A stretch of 64,000 bases of DNA, taken from NCBI RefSeq assembly GCF_003991905.1, contig NZ_RSCL01000037.1, positions 1 through 64,000 on the forward strand, read 5' to 3'. The stretch is from Dulcicalothrix desertica PCC 7102. GTDB lineage: Bacteria > Cyanobacteriota > Cyanobacteriia > Cyanobacteriales > Nostocaceae. Below are positions 7,605-42,322 of this stretch, in pieces. Numbering within the stretch: the stretch's first letter is position 1; the number at the start of each line of letters is the position of its first letter. The position numbers and the translations under genes were made by a program. The notes under the pieces were generated by a model that saw only the letters and a list, made by a program, of their open reading frames with translations, was not told where the DNA came from and searched no databases.

Positions 7605-8024
7605 TGTCGTAATATTTACTTCAGTAAATCAAAAAATAATAACATTTCATTAGCACTCCATACCAAGCAATTACACTTCAATTATCACTTATTATTTACT
7701 GTAATAATTAATACAGACATAAAACCAAAGAAACCGGGTTTCTAAGCCAAATAGTCATTTTTATTACAGATTTCAAACAATAAACCCGGTTTCTAAGATT
7801 TAAAATAACGCCAAAGAAACCGGGTTTCTAAGCCAAATAGTCATTTTTATTACAGATTCCAAACAATAAACCCGGTTTTTAAGATTTAAAATCAAAAAGT
7901 TTTTAGTTTACAAAAATCAAAACTATTTAATCTAAACTATGCGCTTCGTACAGAAATTTGGGTGTTAAGATGTAAAGACCAAGCGGTTACTAATTATAAC
8001 TGCTCATAAAGCGGAGGAAAACAC
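7605..8024. other. Intergenic region upstream of dps, mostly tandemly duplicated repeat
   Basis: 420 bases without a gene. Positions 7725-7896 are two copies of an 86-bp unit carrying the AAACCGGGTTT inverted repeat. The last 125 bases before dps are AT-rich and should hold its promoter. A GCGGAGGA ribosome site ends about ten bases before the ATG. Confidence 0.6.
7725..7896. repeat. 86-bp tandem duplication of an AAACCGGGTTT inverted-repeat element
   Basis: CCAAAGAAACCGGGTTTC begins at 7725 and again at 7811, a period of 86 bases. The unit includes AGTCATTTTTATTACAGATT in its loop and ends with AATAAACCCGGTTT plus AAGATTTAAAAT. The copies differ by only a few bases (for example GATTTC/GATTCC), so the duplication is recent. 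A related loop lies in the copy at 17615-17680. Confidence 0.85.
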
Positions 8025-8858: not shown

Positions 8859-11800
8859 ATGCCTCGCCGCAACGACATAAAAAAAATATTACTCCTCGGT
8901 TCTGGACCTATCGTCATTGGGCAAGCTTGTGAGTTTGATTATTCAGGTACCCAAGCTTGTAAAGCACTACGTGAGGAAGGTTATGTAGTAGTACTGGTAA
9001 ACTCCAACCCAGCTACAATAATGACTGACCCAGAAACAGCCGACCGTACTTACATTGAACCACTGACACCGCAGTTGGTCGAAAAGGTAATTGAGAAGGA
9101 ACGTCCCGACGCTTTGCTACCAACGATGGGGGGACAAACCGCGTTGAATATCGCTGTGGCATTAGCGAAAAATGGGGTTTTAGATAAATATAATGTAGAA
9201 CTGATAGGCGCCAAGTTGCCAGCTATCGAAAAGGCAGAAGATAGAAAGCTGTTTAACGAAGCGATGGCAAAAATTGGTGTTTCGGTTTGCCCTAGTGGAA
9301 CTGCTTCATCGTTGGAAGAAGCCAAAGAAATTGCACATCGTATTGGTACTTATCCTTTAATTATTCGCCCAGCTTTTACAATGGGTGGTACAGGGGGAGG
9401 TATTAGCTATAACTCTGAAGAGTTTGCCGAAATGGCCCAAGGGGGTATTGACGCTTCTCCTGTTTCACAAATTCTCATTGACCAGTCGCTATTAGGATGG
9501 AAAGAGTACGAACTAGAAGTAATGCGCGACTTGGCAGATAATGTGGTAATTATTTGCTCGATAGAAAACCTTGACCCAATGGGTATCCATACAGGAGATT
9601 CAATAACAGTTGCCCCAGCGCAAACCCTTACCGATAAGGAATATCAAAGGTTGCGGGATATGGCAATTAAGATTATTCGTGAAATTGGTGTAGAAACGGG
9701 TGGTTCTAATATTCAGTTTGCCGTAAACCCTGTGAACGGCGAAGTTGTTGTGATTGAAATGAACCCGCGTGTTTCTCGTTCTTCTGCACTTGCTTCTAAA
9801 GCAACAGGTTTCCCTATCGCCAAAATGGCGGCAAAACTAGCGGTTGGTTATACGCTAAATGAAATTAAAAATGATATCACCAAGCAAACTCCGGCATCGT
9901 TTGAACCGACCATCGATTATGTAGTTACAAAAATTCCTCGCTTTGCGTTTGAAAAATTTCCTGGCTCAGAACCAGTATTAACAACGCAAATGAAATCTGT
10001 TGGGGAAGCGATGGCAATTGGTCGCACGTTCAACGAATCATTTCAAAAAGCGTTGCGTTCTTTAGAAACGGGACGTGCAGGTTGGGGATGTGATAAACCT
10101 GAAAAACTTCCAAGTGGAGAGCAAATACGCGCGCAACTGCGAACTCCTAACCCCGAACGAATTTTCGCTTTGCGTCATGCAATGTTACTAGGAATGAGTA
10201 TCGAGGATATTTTTGAATTGACGGGTATTGACCCTTGGTTCCTCGATAAAATGCTGTCGATTCTTGACGTGGAGAAATTTCTCAAACGTACACCTCTACA
10301 TCAGTTGACAAAAGAGCATTTGTATGAAATAAAACGTCAAGGATTTAGCGATAAACAAATAGCTTTTGCAACTAAGACTAATGAAGACCAAGTGCGCGCA
10401 TATCGCTCCTCACTAGGAGTTATTCCAGTTTATAAAACGGTGGACACCTGTGCTGCTGAGTTTGAAGCGTTTACTCCCTATCACTACTCAACTTACGAAG
10501 AAGAAACCGAAATAATGCCCACTGATAAACCCAAAGTTATGATTTTGGGAGGTGGTCCAAATCGTATTGGACAGGGTATTGAGTTTGATTACTGTTGTTG
10601 CCATGCTGCTTATGCTTTGAAAGAAGCAGGTTTTGAGACAATAATGGTTAACTCCAATCCAGAAACCGTCTCTACAGACTATGACACCAGCGATAGATTA
10701 TATTTTGAGCCGTTAACCAAAGAAGACGTTCTCAATATTATTGAAGCCGAAAATCCTGTCGGTGTCATCGTTCAGTTTGGCGGACAAACACCTTTAAAAT
10801 TATCAGTTCCTTTACAGCAAGCACTCAGCACTCAGCACTCAGCACTCAAAACTAAAATTTGGGGTACGTCTCCAGATTCTATTGATATTGCTGAAGACCG
10901 CGAACGGTTTGAACAGATTCTGAAACGACTCGATATTGCTCAACCTCCAAATGGTCTTGCTCGTACTTACGAAGATGCTTTGGTTGTTGCTAAACGCATT
11001 GGTTATCCGGTTGTGGTTCGTCCTAGTTACGTTCTTGGTGGACGTGCAATGGAAATTGTCTATTCTGACTCAGAACTTGAGCGTTATATGACTTTTGCCG
11101 TTCAAGTTGAACCTGACCACCCAATTTTAATTGATAAATTCTTAGAAAATGCCATCGAAGTCGATGTTGATGCCATTGCCGACCATACCGGACGTGTTGT
11201 GATTGGCGGTATTATGGAACACATTGAACAAGCAGGTATTCACTCTGGTGACTCAGCTTGTGCGTTGCCATCGATTTCGTTACCTCCTGCTGTTCTAGAT
11301 AAAATTCGTACCTGGACAGTGGAACTTGCTAGAGCTATTTCTGTTGTTGGGTTAATGAATATTCAGTTTGCTGTCGTCGGCGCCCAAGGTTATTCACCGA
11401 GCGTGTATATTTTAGAAGCAAACCCACGCGCTTCGCGAACTGTACCATTTGTTTCAAAAGCAACAGGTGTACAGTTAGCAAAATTAGCTTCATTAATAAT
11501 GTCGGGCAAAACCTTAGAAGAGTTAGGTTTTACCAAAGAAATCATTCCTTCTCATATTGCCGTCAAAGAAGCAGTATTACCGTTTAATAAATTCCCAGGT
11601 ACTGATACTATACTGGGTCCAGAAATGCGCTCAACTGGCGAAGTCATGGGCATTGACATCGACTTCGGACGTGCCTATGCAAAAGCAGAACTTGGCGCCG
11701 GCGAACAACTACCCCTATCAGGAACAGTCTTCGTCTCAATGAACGACCGTGATAAAACACCAGTAGTACCCATTGTCAAGGAATTTATCGATTTGGGTTT

Positions 11801-30949: not shown

Positions 30950-31288
30950 AATTAAAATTAGGCATTTTCAGGCAATATTGATAAGTATTTACACGGAACT
31001 TTGCGCTCTTGTAACCAACATGCTGCTCATAGGTCTAGTCAAATCGGCTTAAATATTGCCATACTTCAATAAAACAAGCCAAGCATCTCCGGATTTGCTT
31101 TAGGAGGAACAGAAAAATAAGGAAAATACAGTTATAAGTGTTTTGGTTAACACCGATATACGGTACTTAGCCTTAATAATTCTAAGAGTTAGCAATTTAA
31201 TTTCAAAGCATCTACGTATAAAAAGTAGAGACATTACATGTAACGTCTCTACCCGGTTAATTTATATAGATTAAGTGTGAGGAAGTCA
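30950..31288. other. Intergenic region with a GTAGAGAC palindrome
   Basis: About 330 bases with no gene. Positions 31225-31252 hold a near-palindrome GTAGAGAC...GTCTCTAC centred on ACATGT. The rest is AT-rich leader of the LCP gene. Confidence 0.5.
31225..31252. repeat. GTAGAGAC...GTCTCTAC palindrome
   Basis: 28-bp palindrome with centre TTACATGTAA and one A/C mismatch between the arms. Other members are at 39649, 45476, 60874, 60983 and 62152. Confidence 0.8.
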
Positions 31289-32701
31289 GTGACGATTCAA
31301 AGAACTTCTGCGGAAGAGAACTTTTCAAGTGATACTAAGAATGTAAGCAGTAAAAAAATTCCGGACAAATCAGGACGTTGGTTATGGTTCTGGGTGGGGA
31401 TGAGCGGAATAGCAATGGTATCGGCGACTGCTGGAGCATTACTAGCGGTATCCTTAAGCAGCACCCCTCTGATGCAAGCGAACTTAAGTCCACAAGAAGC
31501 AGCAGTATTCGATGGGGACCGCATTGCCGGAGGTGGGTTACGCTTTTCTGAATTGACACGTCCTGTCAACATTCTTGTGATGGGAATGAGCGTGCTTCCT
31601 CCCGATGTTAAAAATCCTCCTACCGAAAGTCAAAATCTTCGTTACCTTCCCCAAGTTAATTCCTTTGACGGTTTAGCGGATGTAATGTTATTAATTCGCT
31701 TTGACCCAGAAAATAAAACTTTAAAAATGCTCTCTATACCCCGTGATACCCGAATTGATATTGAGGGACACGGAACAAAAAAAATTAATGCAGCTAATAC
31801 CTTTGGTGGACCTGCTTTAACTGCCAAAACAGTCAGCAACTTGCTGGGTGGTGTGGGAGTTGACCGTTATGTTCGTATTAATGTACTAGGTGTTGGCAAG
31901 TTAATTGATGCCTTGGGTGGTGTCAATGTTTTTGTGCCCAAGGACATGAAATATCAAGATGATTCACAGCATCTTTACATTAACCTTAAAAAAGGTCAGC
32001 AGCATTTAGATGGTAATAAAGCGTTACAGTTACTACGTTACCGTCACGATGAAAATGGCGACATTGGTCGAATTCAGCGTCAGCAAATGGTAATGCGTGC
32101 GCTTATGGACCAAACTCTTAACCCAGCAACTTTGGGACGTTTACCAGATGTACTCAACGTCGTCAAAGAACACATTGATACTAACTTGACCGTTGAAGAA
32201 TTATTAGCGTTGGTAGGATATGGCGCCCGTACAAACCGTTCAAATATACTACAGTTAATGGTGCCAGGTCGGTTTAGCGAGAAAAACGAATTTGACGCGA
32301 GTTACTGGATACCAAACAGTGACCGGATTGCGAAAACAATGGCACAGCACTTTGATTTGCAATCTGTAGCAGCGACAAAAGACACCGAACCCAGGAGGTT
32401 GCGTATTGCAATTCAAGATAGTACTGGGGATGAGAAAACTAACCTCCAACCTTTAATTCGGATTTTAGAAAAGGCAGGTTATCGTAACGTATTTATCGCA
32501 AAAAGCTGGGGTGAACCGTTACAAGTCACTCATATTCTGGCACAGCAAGGTGATGGTAATGAAGCTGAGTCGGTACGTAGTACTCTAGGTTTCGGTGAAG
32601 TTCGTGTTGAAAGTACAGGTACTCTAGGCTCGGATGTTAGTATCCAAGTTGGTAAAGACTGGTTACAGCAACTCAATTCGACAGAAAATCAAGGTGGATA
32701 G
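31289..32701 (+). CDS. LCP (LytR-CpsA-Psr) family protein
   Basis: About 470 aa. The GTG at 31289 has GAGGAAG 6 bases upstream; another GTG at 31277 would add four residues. An N-terminal membrane helix (about 33-55) anchors an extracytoplasmic LCP domain (about 95-300). It carries the family's Arg/Asp motifs: MLSIPRDTRIDI, KINAANTFGGP, LLRYRHDENGDIGRIQRQQ. LCP proteins transfer lipid-linked glycopolymers to peptidoglycan. A LytR C-terminal domain (about 370-455) follows. The substrate polymer in cyanobacteria is not established. Monocistronic by context. Confidence 0.9.
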   Translation: MTIQRTSAEENFSSDTKNVSSKKIPDKSGRWLWFWVGMSGIAMVSATAGALLAVSLSSTPLMQANLSPQEAAVFDGDRIAGGGLRFSELTRPVNILVMGMSVLPPDVKNPPTESQNLRYLPQVNSFDGLADVMLLIRFDPENKTLKMLSIPRDTRIDIEGHGTKKINAANTFGGPALTAKTVSNLLGGVGVDRYVRINVLGVGKLIDALGGVNVFVPKDMKYQDDSQHLYINLKKGQQHLDGNKALQLLRYRHDENGDIGRIQRQQMVMRALMDQTLNPATLGRLPDVLNVVKEHIDTNLTVEELLALVGYGARTNRSNILQLMVPGRFSEKNEFDASYWIPNSDRIAKTMAQHFDLQSVAATKDTEPRRLRIAIQDSTGDEKTNLQPLIRILEKAGYRNVFIAKSWGEPLQVTHILAQQGDGNEAESVRSTLGFGEVRVESTGTLGSDVSIQVGKDWLQQLNSTENQGG

Positions 32702-33039
32702 TCCTGGCAACGGATGATAAACGGATGTAACGGATAGGCGTTTTAGATAATTCATCCGTTACATCCGTTGTATTCTTTGCTTTTTTTTAGCAATTTAAGA
32801 AGAATACTTGCTTTATCAGTAAGTTTACTTATATTATACATAGTTATATTTGCAGGAAAATATTATACGTAAATGTCAGAGTAATTCTACGCACGTAGAA
32901 TTTTAATAGCTGCATCGTATAATATCAATTTCGCATAATCATTGAACAATATAATTTGCTCTAGGCAACTACCTTACTTGTACGGTGGTAAGTTTTGGTT
33001 GCTTTTTGTCTGTAATTTGACAATATATCAAAGAATTTT
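32702..33039. other. Intergenic region with a GGATGTAAC inverted repeat
   Basis: 338 bases with no gene. The repeat occupies 32704-32773; the rest is AT-rich upstream sequence of the PEP-CTERM-like gene. Confidence 0.5.
32704..32773. repeat. GGATGTAACGGAT-family inverted repeat
   Basis: CAACGGATGATAAACGGATG then TAACGGAT, with ATCCGTTACATCCGTTG as the right arm. The same left arm occurs at 33943. It starts 8 bases after the LCP stop. Confidence 0.8.
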
Positions 33040-33891
33040 ATGCAAAAACTTTTGAACTCAAAGTACTTTTTACTATTGACATTTACAGCTATTACTAGTT
33101 GTTTTATAACGCCAAAAGCCAGTATAGCTGCAACTTTTGCATTTTCAGAAGCTGGTTTTAGGTTTGATAATTTTAGTGTTAGTCCAAAGGATGTAGAGAC
33201 TTTCGCAGATACAAATATCCAGGCTATTAATTTTAGTTCTCAAGGTAAAGCTAATGCTGATGCAGAAGCAAATGCTAATTTTACTAGCATTCCTAATTTA
33301 CCTTTATCATTCGCTAATAATCTTTCATCAAGTATAGCTATGGGTGAAGGGAAAGACTATTTTGGTAGCGCTGAAAGTGTTGCTAGTGTTACAGGTTATA
33401 ACTTTCAAGTTGCACCAGAAGGTATTTTTTCGTTTGACTTTACGGGGTTTCTTGTTCTTCTGGCTCTAGCTGATGACCCTACAACTGAATATGCCAGTGC
33501 CGATGGTGAAATCTCACTTCAATTATATGACCAAGATAACGGCGTACTTTTAGACTCACTATCAATACAAGGAAATACGGCGACTTCTAATAATTTGAGT
33601 TTTCTCACCCAGAATAAAACCGATAATTTCTCTTTTATTCCTACTGACACTTCTTTTGATACAGACTTTAACGGTATAAATAAATACGCTATTGCTAGTG
33701 TTAAAGGTAAGTACTCTAGAAAACTTGCAGCAGGCGCCAATCTGAGTTTGTTTGAGCTAAAAAATAATCGTGTGCGTGTTGCAGTTCCAGAACCCACAAG
33801 TCAGTTGGCTCTTGTTTTTGGCGCAATAAGTATTCTCCTAATTGTAAAACGAGAGCGTAAATTACTTCAGAACAAAATTACTATTAAATAA
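33040..33891 (+). CDS. Exported PEP-CTERM-like protein
   Basis: 283 aa. Signal peptide at residues about 1-31 (ending ASIAAT). The middle is a Ser/Asn/Ala-rich beta domain of unknown fold. The C-terminus has the three parts of a PEP-CTERM sorting tag: VPEPTS, a hydrophobic helix (QLALVFGAISILLIV) and a basic tail (KRERK). In other bacteria such tags are cut by exosortase for delivery to the envelope or exopolysaccharide. No exosortase gene is in the window. Function of the passenger is unknown. Confidence 0.75.
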   Translation: MQKLLNSKYFLLLTFTAITSCFITPKASIAATFAFSEAGFRFDNFSVSPKDVETFADTNIQAINFSSQGKANADAEANANFTSIPNLPLSFANNLSSSIAMGEGKDYFGSAESVASVTGYNFQVAPEGIFSFDFTGFLVLLALADDPTTEYASADGEISLQLYDQDNGVLLDSLSIQGNTATSNNLSFLTQNKTDNFSFIPTDTSFDTDFNGINKYAIASVKGKYSRKLAAGANLSLFELKNNRVRVAVPEPTSQLALVFGAISILLIVKRERKLLQNKITIK

Positions 33892-34651
33892 AAAGAAAGA
33901 AGCTAGTGGTTTATGTCAAAAGTTTTGGAAGGTTGTAAAATCGGCAACGGATGATAAACGGATGTAACGGATGGTTGATTTTTAATAATTAGATGAGCGT
34001 TTGTAACCAATAACTTATCCGTTACATCCGCTCTGATCCGTTGCTAATCAACACACCAAAATTAATGACACAGACCACTAGAGAACGCTGTTTTTAAGGC
34101 AATTTGGCAGGTTCATAGTCGATAAACCCCGCCAAGCTTCTATTTGCCCCTATTTTCCACTACTTACAGTGATACTTCTTATATAAAACCTATAATTTTA
34201 CTGATTTTTATACTCGAAAATTAATTTTCTTTAAGAAATACATTAAAAAAATAAAGCAACATTTAAAATTAGGTATAGGACAGCGTATTAAGCGCTAACA
34301 TAAATAAGTTCAGTTAAATTAAATAAGTTCATAAGTGCTAGAGCAAAGTTATTTATCTTTTTCTCCTCAAAGATAATATTAAGCCATAGCATTCATTTGC
34401 TTAATGGCAAGGTCAGAAAATTACAAATTAATAAAAACTTAAAGATTAAAGGCTTTGTCATCTACCCAGAGAATGAGGTAAGCAAATTCCCTAGATAGGT
34501 CAGAAAGCATATAAGAGCATCATTTCTTTAAAGGTTGATGCCATGCTTGTCTTCGGTCAGATTAATTTGCGATTAAAGTCTCATGGATTTTTTTGAAAGA
34601 GAGAAAAATATATAATTCATTTCTTTTGAATATACAAAAGGTTGGTGTGAC
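33892..34651. other. Long intergenic region upstream of the peptide-export cluster
   Basis: 760 bases. A GGATGTAAC repeat lies at 33943-34047. From 34060 to 34651 it is about 70 percent A+T with no credible ORF, tRNA or repeat that I can see. It should contain the promoter and a long leader of the exporter operon. Confidence 0.5.
33943..34047. repeat. GGATGTAACGGAT-family inverted repeat, long form
   Basis: CAACGGATGATAAACGGATG plus TAACGGAT at left, and TTATCCGTTACATCCGCTCTGATCCGTTG at right (split here for length). The spacer of about 50 bases is larger than in the other two copies. It contains one of only a handful of GATC sites in the window. Confidence 0.75.
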
Positions 34652-37390
34652 GTGTTTTCTAACCAACATCTTGGTGAGCTACTAACGGCTACCCTAGGAG
34701 AATCATTCTCACAAAATGACCTTAATGACTGCTTGCGGGGAGTAGAAATACTTAAACCGCCACCCCTAAAGCGGTTTTGGCAGGCAGCAGAGTCAAAGCC
34801 AGGAATTTATATAGTTCTGGCAGGAAAAGTTAGATTGCTGGATTCTGATAATTTAATTGCTACTCAAGGCGCCGGGACTTCGTTTGGTGAAATGACTCTA
34901 TTTCCTAAAGAAGGATTTGGTGTTTATGTTGCTAAAGCTTCAACAGACTTAGAAGTTTGTTATGTCGGAAGTGATGTGTTGCTTCCGTTGATGGAGAAAT
35001 ATCCTAATATATACGCTCATCTCAAAGCGCGCGCTTTGAGTTGGGATAAAAGATTGCGGCGCCAAAACCATCAACAGCCACAACCACTTGGTCATACTAG
35101 TAATTGTCAAACATTATCAAAGCGTACTAATCACAGCAACGTTTTACCTTTTACACGAGCATCAGTTAGAACTAGTAAACCAAAACAAGCTTATTTTCCG
35201 AGTCCGAGTTTAAAAATTGGGCATTCGTTACGGCGCCACTTTAAACGCTATCCGTTTTATGCACAACAAAGCGCTTCTGACTGTGGCGCCGCTTGTATTG
35301 CGATGATAGGTCGCTACTGGGGTAAGTATTTATCGGTAAATCGTTTACGCGAACAAGCTTTAACGAACCGTAGCGGAACTTCGCTGAAGAATTTAGCATA
35401 TTCGGCAGAAACGGCTGGCTTTGCCACCAGACCAGTTAAAGCTAGTTTGGATAAGTTAGCTCAACAACCTCTACCCGCAATTGCTCACTGGGAAGGTAAG
35501 CATTACGTGGTTGTTTATGAAATTAACTCGAAGCAGGTAATTATCGCTGACCCCGCAATTGGGCAACGCACTCTAAGCATTACTGAGTTTCAAGCTGGTT
35601 GGACAGGTTATGCTCTATTGTTACAACCTACGTCGAATCTAGATAATGCTGAACTAAAGAATTCATTCTGGAAATTCTTTGAGCTAGTTAAACCTCACTC
35701 TCTAGTACTGTTTGAAGTATTTATTGCTTCTGTGTTGATTCAAGTATTTGGATTAATAACACCACTATTTACACAGCTACTACTAGACCGAGCGATTGTA
35801 CAAGGCAGTACTTTAACTTTGAATGCGATTGGTTTAGGTCTAGTTATTTTCGGTTTATTCCGCATTGCTTTAAATGGAGTGCGGCAGTATCTACTAGACC
35901 ATACTGCCAACCGCGTGGGAGTCTCTTTACTCGTAGGGTTTATTAAGCATACCTTCCGCTTACCCTTAGAGTATTTTGAGTCGCGTTACGTTGGTGACAT
36001 CATTTCTCGTGTTCAAGAAAACCAGAAAATTCAACGCTTTTTAACTGGTGAAGCATTATCAATCATTCTTGATTTACTCACCGTGGTTATCTATTTGGGG
36101 TTGATGTTCTGGTATAGCTTTAGTATGGCGTTGTTAGTGCTGTTGATTGTGCCACCATTTTTTATTCTGGCGTTCGCTAGCACAAGTATTTTGCGTCGTG
36201 TTTCTAGAGAAATTTTTAATGCCTCAACCGAAGAGAATAGTTATTTAATTCAGTCTCTCACAGGTCTACGCTCAGTTCGTTCAATGGCAATTGAGCAGAC
36301 AGTGCGCTGGCATTGGGAGGAATTGTTACATAAGTTAGTCAAAAAAAGCTTTGCTGCACAGGTAATTGGTAATCGTTTATCTATTATTAGTGCTTCGATT
36401 CAAACGTTAATAACTACAGGACTACTCTGGTTCGGCGCCTTACAAGTGATTCATAGCGAACTGACGATTGGGCAATTAGTAGCTTTCAATATGTTATTGG
36501 GTAACGTCATTAGTCCTTTTCAGAGGTTGAGTGTGTTATGGAACCAGTTTCAGGAAATTATTATTTCTACAGAGAGAATAAATGATGTTTTAGATGCCCA
36601 GCCAGAAGAAGACTTACAATTATTTCCTCGTCAGCCATTACGTAGACTTCGTGGCAGCATCCGCTTTGAAAATGTTACCTTTCGATACCATGAACAAAGC
36701 GATATTAATGTACTAGAAAATATTAGTTTTGAAATACGACCAGAACAAACAGTAGCAGTTGTCGGTCGCAGTGGTTCTGGAAAAACAACGCTTTCCAAAT
36801 TAATTTTAGGTTTGTATCCTCCTACAGAAGGAAAATTATTTATCGATGGGCATGATATTACAACTATTGCTCTTAAATCTCTAAGAGAACAAGTTGGTGT
36901 AGTAGACCAAGATACATTTCTTTTCGGTGGCACAATTCGGGAAAATTTATGTATTGCTTATCCTGATGCGACACACGAAGAAATGATTGAAACTGCACGT
37001 TTTTGTGGCGCCGACGAATTCATTTCTCAATTACCGATGGGTTATGAAACACAAATCGGTGAAGGAGGTGGAATGTTATCGGGTGGACAACGACAACGAC
37101 TAGCAATTGCGCGCGCAATACTTGGTAAACCTCGCTTACTACTACTAGATGAAGCAACCAGTCATCTAGACACCGAATCTGAAAGGATTATTCAAAACAA
37201 CCTCAGCAAAATCATCCAAGGAAGAACAACTTTAATAATTGCCCATCGCCTTTCAACAGTACGCAATGCCGACCTAATTCTCGTTTTAGATAAAGGTGTA
37301 CTAGTAGAGACGGGTACTCATGAAGAATTAATCGCCAAGAAAGGTCATTATTACTACCTCAACCAACAACAATTTGCTCAAGCAGGATAG
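34652..37390 (+). CDS. Peptidase-containing ABC exporter with N-terminal cyclic-nucleotide-binding-like domain
   Basis: 912 aa, GTG start. Order: CNB-like domain (about 1-130, GKVRLLDSDNLIATQGAGTSFGEMTLF); a linker; a C39 peptidase (about 195-325) with catalytic Cys211 (SASDCGAACIAMI), His284 and Asp300; a six-helix ABC membrane domain (about 345-640); and an ATPase with Walker A GRSGSGKTT, LSGGQRQRLAIARAI and Walker B LLLLDEATSHLD. C39 exporters cut Gly-Gly leaders and export the core peptide. HetC, the heterocyst-related exporter, belongs to the same broad class. First gene of the export cluster, with substrates at 39980 and 40293. Confidence 0.93.
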   Translation: MFSNQHLGELLTATLGESFSQNDLNDCLRGVEILKPPPLKRFWQAAESKPGIYIVLAGKVRLLDSDNLIATQGAGTSFGEMTLFPKEGFGVYVAKASTDLEVCYVGSDVLLPLMEKYPNIYAHLKARALSWDKRLRRQNHQQPQPLGHTSNCQTLSKRTNHSNVLPFTRASVRTSKPKQAYFPSPSLKIGHSLRRHFKRYPFYAQQSASDCGAACIAMIGRYWGKYLSVNRLREQALTNRSGTSLKNLAYSAETAGFATRPVKASLDKLAQQPLPAIAHWEGKHYVVVYEINSKQVIIADPAIGQRTLSITEFQAGWTGYALLLQPTSNLDNAELKNSFWKFFELVKPHSLVLFEVFIASVLIQVFGLITPLFTQLLLDRAIVQGSTLTLNAIGLGLVIFGLFRIALNGVRQYLLDHTANRVGVSLLVGFIKHTFRLPLEYFESRYVGDIISRVQENQKIQRFLTGEALSIILDLLTVVIYLGLMFWYSFSMALLVLLIVPPFFILAFASTSILRRVSREIFNASTEENSYLIQSLTGLRSVRSMAIEQTVRWHWEELLHKLVKKSFAAQVIGNRLSIISASIQTLITTGLLWFGALQVIHSELTIGQLVAFNMLLGNVISPFQRLSVLWNQFQEIIISTERINDVLDAQPEEDLQLFPRQPLRRLRGSIRFENVTFRYHEQSDINVLENISFEIRPEQTVAVVGRSGSGKTTLSKLILGLYPPTEGKLFIDGHDITTIALKSLREQVGVVDQDTFLFGGTIRENLCIAYPDATHEEMIETARFCGADEFISQLPMGYETQIGEGGGMLSGGQRQRLAIARAILGKPRLLLLDEATSHLDTESERIIQNNLSKIIQGRTTLIIAHRLSTVRNADLILVLDKGVLVETGTHEELIAKKGHYYYLNQQQFAQAG

Positions 37391-37397
37391 TTTCGCC

Positions 37398-38921
37398 ATG
37401 CCATATCCATCTAACTATTCATCTAATGCGCGTGTCGAACCAGAAATCGACGCAGTAGAAATCACAGTAGAAACTACTGATATTGATAATAACAATGGCT
37501 GGTCTTGCGGCACTGAGGAACTTTTAGATGCTTTGCCCCAACCTTGGACGCGCTCGCTACTATACGTACTTCTAATATGTGTAACATTTGTTTTGCCGTG
37601 GGCAATGTTATCTAAAGTCGATGAGACAGGAAGTGCAAGAGGACGTATTGAACCAGAAGGAGCAACTCAAAGATTAGATTCTCAAGCATCGGGAAGTGTA
37701 AAAGCAGTCAAAGTCAAGAAAGGAGATGTAATAAAAGCTAATCAAGTACTAGTTGAATTAGAGTCTGATGTTTTACAAGCCCAAATACAACAAGTTCAGA
37801 CAAAGTTAGAAGGAATAGTAAACCAGCGCAGGCAGTTAGAATTGCTCGCAACTCAGTTACAGTCAGCAATTGACGTAACTGAACAACAAAACAAATCTCA
37901 AGAACTTGAGAAACTTGCTCAAGTTAATCAAGCGTACAAAGACCTTGACACCAAGCAGAGTACCCACAACTTACAAAAATTGGAGAAACTGGCGCCAATA
38001 GAGCAAGCGCAACAGAATATAGAATCTACCCAAACCGCGCTTTCTTTAGCCGACATTCGATTGAGCAAAGATATTGCTGAAGTCCAGCGCTATAAAGAGT
38101 TAGCGCAACAAGGTGTAGTACCGCAAACCAAAATAGTAGAGCTAGAAAAACAAGCTCAAGAAAGCCAAGTACTAACATCGAAAGCGCAATCTGATGTAAA
38201 GCAAGCGCATTTGCGATTAAAACAAGAGCAAAGTCGTTATCAAGTGATTATCAATCAGACGCTTTCAGATATAGGGCAAGCAAAGCTTCGTTACCTTGAG
38301 CAGCAAAGCAGTTATAAGAGTGTCATTCAAGCGGGTAGACTGGCTTTACTAAAAAGTCAAGAAAACCTCAAAGACTTACAAACACAAATCGGCGCCCTAC
38401 AATCTCAAATTGCTCAAACTAGGGCTGAGATAACATCCTTGAAACTTCAGCTACAGCAAAAAATAGTCAGGGCGCCTATCGATGGAGTAATTTTTGCATT
38501 GCCCATTGAAAAGCCAGGAATGGTAGTGCAACCAGGGCAAATGATTGCTCAAATAGCACCAAAAAATACGACTTTGATACTTAAAGCTCAAATACCCAGT
38601 CAACAGAGCGGCTTTTTGAAAGTGGGCAGAAAAGTCAAAGTCAAATTTGACGCTTACCCCTACCAAGACTACGGAGTGGCGCCGGGACAAATCAAATGGA
38701 TATCACCAGATTCAAAAGTAAATCAAACACCCCAAGGCAATATAGAAACCTTTGAATTAGACATTGCCTTGCAACAACCTTATCTCGAATCAGGAAACAA
38801 ACGTATTACCTTAACACCTGGTCAAACAGCGACAGCAGAAGTAATTATCCGTCAACGACGAGTAATTGATTTTATGTTAGACCCATTTAGAAAGTTACAA
38901 AAAGGAGGTTTAGAGCTTTAA
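37398..38921 (+). CDS. HlyD family periplasmic adaptor subunit
   Basis: 507 aa from the ATG at 37398, 8 bases after the exporter stop; a TTG at 37374 that overlaps the exporter is less likely. A cytoplasmic N-terminus is followed by one membrane helix (near SLLYVLLICVTFVLPWAML). Then comes the first lipoyl half (RIEPEGATQRLDSQASGSVKAV), a very long Gln/Leu/Glu coiled coil (about 130-350), the second lipoyl half (KIVRAPIDGVIF) and the beta barrel. It joins the ABC exporter to an outer-membrane channel to form a type I secretion path; no TolC-like gene is in the window. Confidence 0.92.
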   Translation: MPYPSNYSSNARVEPEIDAVEITVETTDIDNNNGWSCGTEELLDALPQPWTRSLLYVLLICVTFVLPWAMLSKVDETGSARGRIEPEGATQRLDSQASGSVKAVKVKKGDVIKANQVLVELESDVLQAQIQQVQTKLEGIVNQRRQLELLATQLQSAIDVTEQQNKSQELEKLAQVNQAYKDLDTKQSTHNLQKLEKLAPIEQAQQNIESTQTALSLADIRLSKDIAEVQRYKELAQQGVVPQTKIVELEKQAQESQVLTSKAQSDVKQAHLRLKQEQSRYQVIINQTLSDIGQAKLRYLEQQSSYKSVIQAGRLALLKSQENLKDLQTQIGALQSQIAQTRAEITSLKLQLQQKIVRAPIDGVIFALPIEKPGMVVQPGQMIAQIAPKNTTLILKAQIPSQQSGFLKVGRKVKVKFDAYPYQDYGVAPGQIKWISPDSKVNQTPQGNIETFELDIALQQPYLESGNKRITLTPGQTATAEVIIRQRRVIDFMLDPFRKLQKGGLEL

Positions 38922-39652
38922 TGTCACAAGTTTTAACAGTAAAAAACGAAGATATTATTCGTCATATAAAATTCTCTTGCCAAATACCAGATGTTCTGCG
39001 GGCAGTAGCAATTCAAAAAATAATTACAGACACTGCCGAGAAAGCGGGTATTAAAGTTGATGAGCCAGAACTTCAACAGGCAGGAGATAACATGCGAGTC
39101 GCCAATAAACTTGTAAAAGCGACTGACACCTTAGCATGGTTAGCAAAACATAATTTAACAGTCGAGGAATTTGAAGAATTAGTTTATGCAAACGTACTAT
39201 CAGCAAAACTTGCCAATCATTTATTTGCTAAACAAATAGAAAGTTACTTTTTCGCTCACCAACTAGATTATGTGGCAGCAGTTACATATGAAGTTGTTTT
39301 AGATGATGAAGATTTGGCGTTTGAGATGTATTACGCATTGCAAGAAGGAGAAATAACTTGGAGCGAATTAGCGCGTCAATTCATTCATAACCCAGAGTTG
39401 AGGAGAACTTGGGGATATCAGGGAATTAGGCGCCGCATAGACTTTCGTCCTGAACTAGCTTCTGCAATATTTGCTTTGGTGGCGCCCCAGATTCTCAAAC
39501 CGATAGTGACTTCAAAAGGAGTCCATCTAATTTGGGTTGAAGAAATAATTCATCCGAAATTAGATGAGCAACTACGCGCCAAAATTCAGCAAGATTTATT
39601 TTCAGCATGGTTAAATCAACAATTTGAACACCTAGAAATAAAAATGCAGTAG
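38921..39652 (+). CDS. Parvulin-type peptidylprolyl isomerase
   Basis: 243 aa, ATG overlapping the HlyD stop (TAATG). An N-terminal SurA-like helical part (about 1-110) precedes a parvulin-like domain (about 125-205). Recognisable positions are WSELARQFIHNPELRRTWGY and FALVAPQILKPIVTSKGVHLIWVEE. Such isomerase genes commonly accompany C39/HlyD exporters in cyanobacteria. It probably assists folding or handling of the exported peptides; there is no signal peptide, so it likely acts in the cytoplasm. Its TAG stop is the start of the palindromic repeat at 39649. Confidence 0.85.
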   Translation: MSQVLTVKNEDIIRHIKFSCQIPDVLRAVAIQKIITDTAEKAGIKVDEPELQQAGDNMRVANKLVKATDTLAWLAKHNLTVEEFEELVYANVLSAKLANHLFAKQIESYFFAHQLDYVAAVTYEVVLDDEDLAFEMYYALQEGEITWSELARQFIHNPELRRTWGYQGIRRRIDFRPELASAIFALVAPQILKPIVTSKGVHLIWVEEIIHPKLDEQLRAKIQQDLFSAWLNQQFEHLEIKMQ

Positions 39653-39676
39653 AGACGTTACATGTAACGTCTCTAC
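39649..39676. repeat. GTAGAGAC...GTCTCTAC palindrome overlapping a stop codon
   Basis: 28-bp perfect palindrome with centre ACGTTACATGTAACGT. Its TAG is the stop codon of the isomerase gene. It may act as the 3' end hairpin of the exporter operon, without a T-run. Confidence 0.85.
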
Positions 39677-39979
39677 TCAAACGAAATATCTTATTAACTA
39701 CCACTTCATTATCAAAAAATTAGTTTTTTTGATTATATTTTGACATAATTAAAAATTCTAAAATACAGATTAGTGAAGAGTTTTTCTGTGTTTAAAAAAA
39801 GATGAATTTACATTAGTTAATGTATTGCTTTTTTCATAAATTGAATGTAAAGTTTAAATAAATGTGATTCAATCTACTAATTTTAATGTTATGTTTAAGG
39901 TGTCACTAAAAAAGAAATAAATAACTGAAATATTAGTGACATTAAATCAACAAAAATTTTGTATTCCTGGGAGAATCTT
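39653..39979. other. Intergenic region before the precursor peptides
   Basis: 327 bases, very AT-rich after the palindrome. No ORF with a Gly-Gly leader is visible in it. It probably carries a separate promoter for the small peptide genes. Confidence 0.5.
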
Positions 39980-40210
39980 ATGATTATCTCTGATATTTCA
40001 CATTTAGAAGTTGCTACTGAAGAAAACAGTATTATTGGTGGATTAGCAATTGCAAATGCATATTCGAGTGCATACGCTAATGGTCCAAACTTTGCAGGCA
40101 CTAATACTAGCACCTATACCAGTGCTTACACTAATGATAGATACTACTATTACTACAGTCCAAACAACAGTGCTAGCTCTAACTCTAACTCTAGTTCAGC
40201 ATCATCATAG
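39980..40210 (+). CDS. Small Gly-Gly leader peptide precursor (putative exporter substrate)
   Basis: 76 aa from the ATG at 39980 with GGGAG 7 bases upstream (the open frame extends seven codons further). The leader MIISDISHLEVATEENSIIGG ends in a double Gly, the C39 cleavage site. The 55-residue core is dominated by Ala, Ser, Asn, Thr and Tyr, with a run of five Tyr (residues 54-58) and a Ser/Asn tail. No Cys at all, so no lanthipeptide or disulfide bridging is possible. Function unknown: a secreted bacteriocin, a signal, or a surface or matrix peptide. The adjacent exporter is the obvious route. Confidence 0.75.
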   Translation: MIISDISHLEVATEENSIIGGLAIANAYSSAYANGPNFAGTNTSTYTSAYTNDRYYYYYSPNNSASSNSNSSSASS

Positions 40211-40241
40211 GCACTTTAATAATCACTTTCTTTAAGGAAAT

Positions 40242-40269
40242 GCTGAAAGCTTTTTTTATAGCTTTCAGC
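40242..40269 (+). terminator. Hairpin between the two peptide genes
   Basis: GCTGAAAGC (40242-40250) and GCTTTCAGC (40261-40269) form a perfect 9-bp stem. The T-rich run is in the loop and no T-run follows. So it may act as a partial terminator, processing site or attenuator that sets the ratio of the two peptides. Confidence 0.5.
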
Positions 40270-40292
40270 TTACCTACTTCAAAAGGGGCATT

Positions 40293-40595
40293 ATGAATAA
40301 ATTAAAAATTGCTGACCTTAGTTTTTGTGAAACTGAGCTTTCTAATAGTGGTGAAGTTCAAGGTGGCGCCGGAGCTTATTACCAACCTGTAGGCTCAGTA
40401 TCAACCAGTTTCAGTGCAGATAATAGTGCAGGCTATTATGGCAACTGGGGAGTGTATAGAGATACTTACGGAGGATACATCATAACAGCGAATGTTTACG
40501 GTTCTGTTGGTGGTGCTGCTGCTGGTGCCGCTTCTGGCGCCGCTTCTGATGGCACTCACTACGCTTCATCCTCCGCACAAGCTAGCACTTATTAA
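40293..40595 (+). CDS. Small Gly-Gly leader peptide precursor 2 (putative exporter substrate)
   Basis: 100 aa. AAAGGGG lies nine bases before the ATG. The leader MNKLKIADLSFCETELSNSG with EVQGG ends in Gly-Gly and shares the I-x-D-(I/L)-S-x-x-E pattern of the first precursor. The 75-residue core is Gly/Ala/Ser/Tyr-rich with GYYGNWGVYRDTYGGY in the middle and repeated small GAA/GAAS units (GGAAAGAASGAASDG). No Cys in the core. A strong terminator follows. Related to precursor 1 in leader, not in core. Confidence 0.75.
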   Translation: MNKLKIADLSFCETELSNSGEVQGGAGAYYQPVGSVSTSFSADNSAGYYGNWGVYRDTYGGYIITANVYGSVGGAAAGAASGAASDGTHYASSSAQASTY

Positions 40596-40614
40596 TTGAC
40601 TGATGAAAAATCAA

Positions 40615-40651
40615 AATCCCGGTAGCTTCTATGCATACCGGGATTATTTTT
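40615..40651 (+). terminator. Rho-independent terminator after precursor 2
   Basis: Perfect 10-bp stem AATCCCGGTA (40615-40624) with TACCGGGATT (40636-40645), followed by ATTTTTAT. This also shows that the following gene cannot start at 40631 on the same transcript. Confidence 0.85.
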
Positions 40652-40711
40652 ATGTGTTTCAAAAATAAAATTTCAAAGAGAAATAAAAAATTAAATGAAA
40701 GGAGTAGTACT

Positions 40712-41263
40712 ATGAGTGATGCAAAAATATTTTTAGAAATATGTTACGCAAAAGAAAAGTTTAATCCTATTTACACTTTACATTCACTATCATATTTCAC
40801 AGAATTAATCGGTGGACTAAATGTAGATACAGTAGCCCAAGAAATTCCTCATTGGTCGAATAATAATCTATCTCTAAAAAAAGAAAAGATTATTACAATT
40901 CAAGAAAAGCTACTTCAAGGGGAGTTAAAGTTTAGAGTTTTATTTTATTTTCCTGAGAGTCAAGAATTGATTAATGCTCTATCCCAAACTTACGGAAAAT
41001 CTGTCCAAGAAGTTAAAACTTATTCCTGTGAAGGTAATGTGTTGCTAGGATACGGAACTATTTATATTTCGCTAGAAGAAAAATTTGCCAAACTGCGAAT
41101 ATTCCCAGATATCGATGTTTTGGCTAATATGATAATGCGAACATCTCTTATTTGCTCTTATTTGGAGAAATTGTGCCAGGAAACAAATGCATTATCGGCT
41201 CATTGGGAAGACTTTGATGATGAAATTTTAATGACGATTTGGTCAAATAAAGTGGCTATATGA
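40712..41263 (+). CDS. Protein of unknown function in the peptide-export cluster
   Basis: 183 aa from the ATG at 40712, which has GAAAGGAG 8 bases upstream; the open frame begins at 40631 inside the terminator and is not used. No domain recognised. It looks soluble, with mixed charge, a repeated pattern of FLEIC, Phe-rich strands (FRVLFYFPESQE) and an acidic C-terminus. No signal peptide, no Gly-Gly leader and no kinase, peptidase or modification-enzyme motif. Its position suggests a role in the export system (immunity, chaperone or regulation), but that is inference. Confidence 0.65.
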   Translation: MSDAKIFLEICYAKEKFNPIYTLHSLSYFTELIGGLNVDTVAQEIPHWSNNNLSLKKEKIITIQEKLLQGELKFRVLFYFPESQELINALSQTYGKSVQEVKTYSCEGNVLLGYGTIYISLEEKFAKLRIFPDIDVLANMIMRTSLICSYLEKLCQETNALSAHWEDFDDEILMTIWSNKVAI

Positions 41264-41278
41264 ATATAAAGGGGGCAT

Positions 41279-41338
41279 TTGACAACCATTGGTTGTCAAA
41301 ATCTCTGGAATTAAAATTTGATAACCATTGGTTATCAA
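41279..41338. repeat. Two AACCATTGGTT palindromes
   Basis: Both have the core AACCATTGGTT. In the first (41279-41299) it is flanked by TTGAC/GTCAA, in the second (41318-41338) by TTGAT/ATCAA, so the arm change is matched on both sides. A third copy with GTG/CAC arms is at 58037-58055. Confidence 0.8.
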
Positions 41339-41352
41339 TTTTAAGGTTTTAT

Positions 41353-41385
41353 GATTGAAACGGGCAAGGATGCCCGTTCCACAAG
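41353..41385. repeat. GGGCAAGGATGCCC-type dispersed repeat
   Basis: GATTGAAACGGGCAAGGATG, then CCCGTTCCACAAG. Nearly identical to 4984-5018; the inner stem CGGGCA/TGCCCG is perfect. Confidence 0.8.
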
Positions 41386-41413
41386 ATGTTTATTCCATAA
41401 TTTGTCTCATAAT

Positions 41414-42322
41414 TTATAGGGAGTGTTGTGTTTGTTCGGAAATCCAGTCTTGTAAGATGGGGTTGATGATTTGTGGCGCCTCGTCTTGGGGGCAATGACC
41501 GACACCTTCGATGGGGATAAATTTGAGTACTTTGGGGTAGTCGGCAAATTGGCGTCCTAATTCTATAGGTTCCCAAGGGTCTGCGGCGCCCCATAAAATA
41601 ATTGCAGGACAGGGTAATTTAGGTAATAAGTCTTCGGGCAAGGGTCCGCTGGAATATGATGTAAATGCTAAAAATACAGCCACAGCTCCTGGGTCTGCTG
41701 CTGGTGACATTAAAATATCTACTAGTTCGTCGGTGACTGCATCTGGATTCGCGTAAGCTTGTAATAAGATTTTACGAACTGTTTTGGGCTTGGCAAGTTG
41801 GTTAAAGAAAAAGTTACCTACAGTTTCGTTAGATAATACTTTTTGCAATAATGGGGTGCCAAAACGTCGATACCACGGTAAAGCAGCGCGTTTGCGGTCG
41901 TGTAATAAACGCAATGAACAGTTAAGCATCGCAACTCCACGAGCAATATCTGGATTATCTACTGCTGCTTGCATGGCAACAATACAACCAATGGAGTTAC
42001 CTACCAAAAACACGGGTTCCCCAACTACTTCGCGACTAAAGTCAGCTATCTGTTGTCCCCAAGTTTCAAATGTATATTCAATTTCTTTTATTGGGTTTGG
42101 TTTTGCTGAACCTCCAAAGCCAATCAAATCAATCGCAAAAACGCGACACTTATCTGCTAGTACCGATATATTTTTCCGCCAATGCCATAACGAGGCGCCG
42201 AAACCATGTATTAAAATTACTGCTGGACCTGTAGTTCCTTGCACTTGGTAAGAGATTGGATAACCCCGCCAAGTCCATATTTGCGATGAAGACAGTTTAG
42301 GAGTAGAGGCAGATATGGTCAT
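41414..42322 (-). CDS. Alpha/beta hydrolase fold protein
   Basis: 302 aa. The oxyanion-hole motif HGFG (39-42), nucleophile Ser110 in the elbow VGNSIGC, and the catalytic His in EGVGHCPQDEAP near the C-terminus give a full triad with an acid near AADPWEP. The insertion between strands 6 and 7 is small. By overall look it is close to cyanobacterial esterase or haloalkane-dehalogenase-like hydrolases, but the substrate cannot be named. Single gene, ATG at 42322. Confidence 0.88.
   Translation of the reverse strand: MTISASTPKLSSSQIWTWRGYPISYQVQGTTGPAVILIHGFGASLWHWRKNISVLADKCRVFAIDLIGFGGSAKPNPIKEIEYTFETWGQQIADFSREVVGEPVFLVGNSIGCIVAMQAAVDNPDIARGVAMLNCSLRLLHDRKRAALPWYRRFGTPLLQKVLSNETVGNFFFNQLAKPKTVRKILLQAYANPDAVTDELVDILMSPAADPGAVAVFLAFTSYSSGPLPEDLLPKLPCPAIILWGAADPWEPIELGRQFADYPKVLKFIPIEGVGHCPQDEAPQIINPILQDWISEQTQHSL

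Follow-up and report, generated by a model that had tools for sequence, protein, structure and literature searches.

Positions 34652 to 41263 of a 64,000-nt stretch of the genome of the cyanobacterium Dulcicalothrix desertica PCC 7102 (contig NZ_RSCL01000037.1, positions 1 to 64,000, forward strand; hereafter the window) encode a C39-type peptide export cluster with two small precursors, PRE1 and PRE2, that carry Gly-Gly (GG) leaders. We find that the precursors, which several genera keep as a pair in fixed order, represent two leader classes, A and B, that a covarying hairpin lies between the A and B genes, and that the pair is linked to a gene for a PEP-CTERM-type secreted protein. The exporter architecture, the likeness of the leaders, the conservation and pairing of the precursors, the PEP-CTERM linkage and the hairpin are all supported by sequence comparison. 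On balance, we lean slightly towards the view that both peptide classes undergo trimming and export and then function in a surface matrix with an exosortase-sorted protein, which would make the system a cousin of the EbfG/PteB biofilm system.

For peptide export the cluster encodes three proteins. The first is a 912-aa exporter (34652..37390, +) in which Pfam and NCBIfam profiles delineate, in order, a cyclic nucleotide-binding (CNB) domain, a C39 peptidase, an ABC transmembrane region and an ATPase (Pfam E-values: cNMP_binding 1.3e-7, Peptidase_C39 4e-42, ABC_membrane 5.3e-45, ABC_tran 1.7e-36). Residues 191-905 are matched by the solved chain of a peptidase-containing ABC transporter (PCAT). 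Inside the PF03412 match (200-328) we noted by eye SDCGAAC, GKHYVVV and ADPAIG, which may be the Cys, His and Asp motifs of C39 peptidases. The second is an HlyD-family adaptor (37398..38921, +; TIGR01843, 212.3 bits versus a cut-off of 208.65). Its open reading frame (ORF) opens at TTG 37374, and its start is probably ATG 37398 because several homologues align from residue 9. The third is a parvulin-type prolyl isomerase (38921..39652, +; PF00639, 27.9 bits versus a cut-off of 21.7), the "SurA" of group I and II clusters. Matches to its family occur in 141 of 148 genomes of the order, the weaker of which no doubt take in other parvulins. In the region read (34000-42000), these genes, PRE1, PRE2 and a further ORF ending at 41263 are all on the plus strand. 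The host genome (11.4 Mb) contains at least three further exporter-HlyD-parvulin clusters among the loci that were fetched (L039, L049, L050).

PRE1 (39980..40210, +), the class-A precursor, has the leader MIISDISHLEVATEENSIIGG (39980-40042) and a predicted 55-aa core rich in Tyr, Ser and Asn. PRE2 (40293..40595, +), the class-B precursor, has the leader MNKLKIADLSFCETELSNSGEVQGG (40293-40367) and a predicted 75-aa core that carries a Gly-zipper-like GGAAAGAASG. Both would be cut after GG, with LAIANAYSS... and AGAYYQPVG... as the predicted N-termini. Profile searches of Pfam and NCBIfam returned no credible family for either. Cys is absent from both cores and occurs once in the PRE2 leader. 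Compared with hhalign, the profiles of the two leaders match over 19 columns (E 0.001 in one comparison, with a probability of only 21%) and the cores do not align. A preliminary description of this DNA had placed a CNB-C39-ABC exporter, an HlyD protein, a parvulin and two GG peptides with unrelated cores on one strand; the frames and domains are where it put them, and the contrast between leaders and cores is borne out. It excluded lanthipeptide rings and two-disulfide bacteriocins from the lack of Cys; models of NHLP, Nif11 and lanthipeptide precursors were unmatched, and neither core bears Cys. We also looked for homology of the cores to each other or to the PEP-CTERM protein (none by hhalign), and scanned ten A/B peptides for Pfam repeats, curlin included; nothing scored above cut-off and only chance-level matches appeared (the best being AC_1 at 0.028 and, for one PRE2, Bacteriocin_IIc at 1.1).

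Among 145 genomes of the family, PRE1 matches at E<1e-3 occur at 26 places in 18 genomes and PRE2 matches at 28 places in 21 genomes; 15 genomes have both and 24 have either. A PRE2 match (E<=0.01) lies within 1.5 kb at 21 of the 26 PRE1 places, and a PRE1 match at 17 of the 28 PRE2 places. Conservation extends into the cores. In alignments, PRE1 cores retain A-x-A-x-G-x-NFA-x-T-x-TSTYT followed by a Tyr-rich stretch and a Ser-rich end, and PRE2 cores retain a G/A-rich AVAGAxAGAxSDG segment. The ratio of nonsynonymous to synonymous substitution rates (dN/dS) in the core, compared with Calothrix C42, is 0.36 for PRE1 and 0.37 for PRE2. Given these ratios and the full-length relatives that keep the cores in other genera, both precursors look like real genes. 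Over all pairs with dS of 0.05-1.5 (52 of 78 for PRE1, 68 of 78 for PRE2), the median core dN/dS is 0.46 for PRE1 (range 0.18-1.59) and 0.62 for PRE2 (0.12-1.24). Thus, the cores look to be coding and mostly constrained, with a few close pairs that evolve freely or fast.

Class-A leaders follow the pattern MIISDLx[HY][LI]E...GG and class-B leaders MSxLKIxDLSFCE...VxGG, and both patterns are retained in relatives whose cores differ. We examined 21 named loci that the PRE2 alignment had led to. A class-A gene is 5' of the B gene in 17; the others are L162, where B is at the contig start, L172, L177 and L179. Class A is present in up to five genes per locus and class B in one or two. Recognised class-A genes outnumber B genes in nine loci, equal them in eight and were not seen in four. 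Oscillatoria PCC 10802, for example, has four tandem PRE1 genes and one PRE2. Exporter, HlyD and parvulin genes are on the same strand in 11 of the 21. Five loci (L163, which begins at a contig end, L165 and L167-L169) have HlyD and parvulin genes and no recognised full exporter within the stretch; for L167 and L168 (Brasilonema), no exporter was found by tblastn.

The hairpin (40242..40269, +) has the arms GCTGAAAGCT and AGCTTTCAGC around a loop, lies between PRE1 and PRE2, and ends 23 nt 5' of the PRE2 start codon. A covariance model (R1) matches 40234-40296, and a 96-nt stretch folds at z -4.4. A like stem is present in the A-B spacer of many relatives, and some are without it by exact-arm search. 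The distance from its end to the B start codon is mostly some 23-33 nt, and about 58 nt in L206 and L207. In a 22-row alignment (A6), 97.1% of cells are paired, changes on both sides occur at 8 of 13 pairs, and the covariation score was reached by 0 of 500 shuffles; further pair types were no more numerous than in shuffles (267 of 500 reached the count). Most rows were found with a pattern that demands nine pairs, so the covariation counts lean towards structure; those of the window, L133 and L144 were found otherwise. Left out of A6 were the hairpins of L135 (identical to that of L132), L202, L206, L207, L208 and L214, the second hairpins of L137 and L132, and the first of L139.

Searching 60 genomes with the covariance model gave 25 sites at E<=1e-4 with strands merged. 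At 16 of the 23 sites examined, the start of a class-B gene is no more than about 95 nt from that of the match, ten of the 16 being training rows or the same loci. The 13 sites outside the training set comprise six that precede a B gene, four that follow a class-A gene without a B gene (L137, L231, L232, L235) and three with neither (L233, L237, L238). The hairpin is thus not an element of class B only, since it also stands behind class-A genes that lack a B gene. In the host genome, only the window and a second pair at C1:569902 have sites at E<=1. By locus, a hairpin 5' of B at E<1e-4 was found in 16 of the 21 named loci, of which ten are training rows or loci of the same genomes; L160, L174, L176, L177 and L178 have either no hairpin there or a weak one. 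A search of Rfam at E<=1 gave no match to the window's hairpin, and a scan of five loci with gathering scores gave none either. We rejected an intrinsic terminator of PRE1, since no coding-strand T-tract follows and a terminator scan reports the minus strand only. A DNA operator is conceivable, though G-U pairs point to RNA (one pair has UG in 5 of its 22 rows, another in two, and others in single cells).

The PEP-CTERM-type protein (283 aa; 33040..33891, +) is encoded 5' of the exporter, outside the interval given in the preliminary description (34652-41263). By eye it has a signal-like N-terminus and a C-terminal VPEPTS followed by a hydrophobic stretch and a basic tail (VPEPTS...KRERK). PEP[STAE] occurs within the last 50 residues of 37 of its 51 homologues. 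The window copy, the only one scored, falls short of the TIGR02595 cut-off (14.9 versus 16 bits). The host genome has two PF09721 (exosortase) matches above cut-off. In genomes with a PRE match (E<=0.01), 21 of 33 PEP homologues have one within 15 kb, counting only the 59 PEP matches with E<1e-24. The chance expectation would be well under one, as estimated from genome sizes and not from a computed control. We looked for exporters at 20 PEP loci without a nearby PRE match. Seven have a full exporter of the same clade (L187, L190, L191, L193-L196), four have an exporter of another clade with 33-34% identity in the C39 region (L183, L185, L188, L189), three have pieces only or a neighbouring gene at the edge (L184, L186, L199), and no exporter was seen in the other six (L180-L182, L192, L197, L198). 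The HlyD protein beside the other-clade exporters is unlike that of the window (25%).

Addressing gene content more broadly, we took 14 of the 19 pair loci and clustered all ORFs of at least 45 aa that lie no further than 7.5 kb from PRE2. L134 was left out, as were L140 and L143 (close to L139 and L136, respectively), L141 and L175 (on a short contig or stretch), and duplicates of the same genomes. PRE1 and PRE2 recur in all 14, HlyD, parvulin and the exporter or its N-terminal piece in 12 each, and the PEP-CTERM gene, the only further family to recur in many pair loci, in nine. The remaining groups found in three or more loci read as antisense or other frames of these genes, except for one small ORF (three loci).

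We predict the following pathway, in which GG cleavage, export and exosortase sorting are inferred from known families. The cluster would be a type I secretion system of the PCAT kind. PRE1 and PRE2 would be made in the cytoplasm, where their leaders (I-x-D-[IL]-S ... GG) would dock on the C39 domain and be cut after GG. The cores would leave via the exporter, HlyD and an outer-membrane channel that we assume is encoded elsewhere, and the parvulin may aid their folding. Outside, the cores would most likely be built into the sheath or biofilm matrix, class A supplying the larger share of subunits and class B the smaller, and would act together with the PEP-CTERM protein, itself sorted to the surface by an exosortase. 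The hairpin between A and B would probably set their relative expression. The matrix role, which has less support than the export steps, is suggested by precedents (EbfG/PteB and CrtB), by the lack of a recurring immunity-like gene, by cores rich in Tyr, Ser, Asn and Ala, and by the unequal copy numbers; like the roles of A and B and the function of the hairpin, it is inferred. A more specific version is speculative: a two-subunit fibre with A as the bulk and B as a minor or nucleating subunit, CNB-gated PCAT export, a PEP-CTERM surface partner, and a hairpin that fixes the A:B ratio. The logic of such a fibre would resemble that of curli (CsgA/CsgB), although its subunits would be secreted by an unrelated route.

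The preliminary description had left open whether the pair is a two-component bacteriocin, a cell-cell signal or a matrix building block; the evidence leans to the last without proving it. A two-peptide bacteriocin, in which the A and B cores jointly act on membranes of competing cyanobacteria, seems to us unlikely. Two neighbouring genes that each encode a GG leader, together with a C39 exporter, would suit it, as would the presence or absence of the cluster at one place among same-genus genomes (see below) and the fast evolution of some core pairs. However, the census revealed no immunity-like gene among the groups recurring in three or more of the 14 loci, a search that unlinked, very short or very divergent immunity genes would escape. 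Further, the window PRE1 core is hydrophilic (grand average of hydropathy -0.77) and without GxxxG, of which PRE2 has three; of 19 PRE2-type cores, only five, the window's not among them, have more GxxxG than their shuffles (p<0.05); and the A and B copy numbers are unequal in many loci. Two adjacent GG precursors are shared with class IIb two-peptide bacteriocins, in which both peptides have GxxxG and a dedicated immunity gene lies nearby; here GxxxG is present in PRE2 and absent from PRE1, and no immunity gene recurs.

Least likely, in our estimate, is that the pair serves as a cell-cell signal whose export is metabolically controlled, a proposal made for HetC in heterocyst development. The order of domains is that of HetC (Nostoc PCC 7120), whose CNB domain is reported to bind guanosine tetraphosphate (ppGpp) in vitro and to be required in vivo, with the substrate unknown (PMC10986499). 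By analogy, this gives a hint on control of the window exporter, whose CNB may read ppGpp. Both leaders also resemble the motif of HetP-type leaders, KIxDLxYLEx10GG (PMC3140520). According to the HetC paper, a search near hetC turned up no GG-leader gene (PMC10986499), whereas here the precursors adjoin the exporter. Cores of 55 and 75 residues, and tandem copies, would be unusual for signals, and no receptor or regulator was found among the recurring neighbours of the 14 loci. PRE1 and PRE2 are also present in Oscillatoria PCC 10802, a genus not known to form heterocysts.

The peptides could have another surface use, such as a coat that protects from drying or a sheath scaffold, and the PEP-CTERM gene could be linked simply because surface genes in general lie in that neighbourhood. 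This reading is improbable in our view, slightly more so than the bacteriocin. It draws on the hosts of the named loci, which include Scytonema, Brasilonema, Hassallia, Spirirestis and Rhizonema, presumably mostly terrestrial, soil-crust or lichen-forming genera.

Several observations weigh against the matrix role with a PEP-CTERM partner. The PEP-CTERM gene is within 7.5 kb in nine of the 14 pair loci and not in all; over all genomes only 21 of the 59 PEP matches are near a PRE match, and four same-genus genomes retain the gene at a place that lacks the cluster. Evolution is faster in the cores than in the leaders, and the pairs with dN/dS >=0.95 (4 of 52 for PRE1, 4 of 68 for PRE2) also fit antagonism, as does the Gly-zipper-like run conserved in PRE2 cores, which is found in some bacteriocins. 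Beta-strand fibres would be expected to show alternating small residues. These are shared, by eye, by both cores and the PEP-CTERM protein; among distinct peptides (80 class A and 40 class B, identical ones dropped), no more than 19 class-A cores and one class-B core reached p<0.05 for them, the rows being related. Finally, no full exporter, or an N-terminal piece only, is present in the stretches of four of the 14 loci (L136, L139, L145, L146) and in those of L134, L140 and L143, so export in trans must be assumed there.

The core of exporter, HlyD and parvulin is of a kind already known. Wang, Fewer and Sivonen (2011) described group I and II clusters with a long CAP_ED-C39-ABC exporter, an adjoining HlyD, a SurA-like rotamase protein and nearby GG precursors, and reported 145 clusters of all groups in 58 genomes (PMC3140520); the same scheme was used for Subsection V strains in a paper that quotes 358 clusters in 106 genomes (PMC4558948). 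The PRE2 leader, KIADLSFCE plus ten residues and GG, resembles their HetP-like motif. That cleavage motif is possibly tied to an M16 peptidase (PMC3140520); we found no group II modification gene, such as M16, among the eight proteins scanned (31277-41260), and group I fits the cluster better than group II. They reported very little conservation of cores, whereas here cores are conserved, and the portions of their text that were available mention neither A/B classes, a PEP-CTERM neighbour nor an intercistronic hairpin (PMC3140520).

Also close is the EbfG/PteB system of Synechococcus elongatus PCC 7942, where the GG proteins EbfG1-4 enable biofilm formation (PMC4997328) and EbfG1-3 are positive in amyloid assays (PMC9981879). 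Both systems have small GG proteins, which in EbfG/PteB are co-transcribed, require a C39 protein for secretion and have a matrix or surface role (PMC4997328, PMC9981879, PMC9260433). Mature EbfG1-4 are described as lacking homology to proteins of other cyanobacteria (PMC4997328), whereas the A and B families span genera. The PEP-CTERM neighbour is a further difference; its C-terminal signal and the two host exosortases match the known sorting route, and the exosortase CrtB is reported to be needed for biofilm and motility (PMC12188702).

The ordered pair with two leader classes, the PEP-CTERM neighbour and the A-B hairpin were not met in the papers searched, and all three appear to be new here. 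Neither the hairpin nor a link between PEP-CTERM proteins and C39 exporters in cyanobacteria was found in literature searched at title and abstract level, with subscription journals mostly outside coverage. Such clusters are filed as bacteriocins, most with unknown products, and the pair, its neighbour and the hairpin offer matrix assembly as a concrete alternative, with handles for testing in Scytonema NIES-4073, Oscillatoria PCC 10802 and Fischerella. If true, the matrix reading would join PCAT export and exosortase sorting, so far studied apart, and the pair would give CNB-C39 exporters, which ppGpp may control, a set of candidate substrates.

Four of five same-genus genomes lack the cluster at this chromosomal place (L148, L149, L200, L201), with matching flanks, a retained PEP-CTERM gene and differing break points. 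L148 retains the PRE2 tail and a scrap of the gene at 40712, beside an extra 337-aa ORF, and L149 retains part of the 40712 gene, remnants that speak for loss; L201 retains nothing. In Calothrix C42 (L133) the cluster is present and the PEP-CTERM gene is absent there. Given this patchy presence at one place, the peptides are an accessory trait.

The ORF at 40712..41263 (+), which the preliminary description counted as a cluster member, is probably not part of the system. Pfam and NCBIfam assign it no credible family, and a search of 148 genomes of the order matched nothing but the window's own copy. The 145 family genomes yielded remnants in G255 and G218, both of the same genus, and one 25%-identity match inside a 1212-aa frame. 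A co-occurrence check across the 14 pair loci showed no recurrence. Its start is more likely at 40712 than at 40631, because GAAAGGAG is just upstream. Between PRE2 and this ORF, a stable hairpin followed by a T-rich stretch (40615..40645, +; z -4.35 for a 76-nt stretch) is perhaps a terminator; the terminator scan does not list it.

A palindrome, GTAGAGACGTTACATGTAACGTCTCTAC (39648-39677), lies directly 3' of the parvulin stop codon and recurs 3' of PRE2 in L131; it looks like a dispersed repeat. CNB-only ORFs that correspond to the exporter N-terminus adjoin precursor pairs without a full exporter in L136 (5763-6368), L143 (13110-13466) and L146 (7650-8090), and could be either exporter remnants or free sensor domains. 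Elsewhere in the host genome, L146 (G000:C1:563000-582000) and L039 hold a second PRE1/PRE2-type pair and several other A- and B-leader peptides over ~20 kb, with intervening ORFs that look by eye like radical SAM and TPR proteins. L049 (G000:C29) encodes, at 7761-7958 and 9875-10081, peptides with another leader type (ISNLxxSGAELxxDxExYLxELT...KGG) adjoining a cluster with a same-clade exporter. In L171, L173, L174 and L178, class-A cores are short, many have Cys, and a Val/Ala run is followed by GDR (NVAVAVAVAGDR); L174 has five tandem copies of such a gene.

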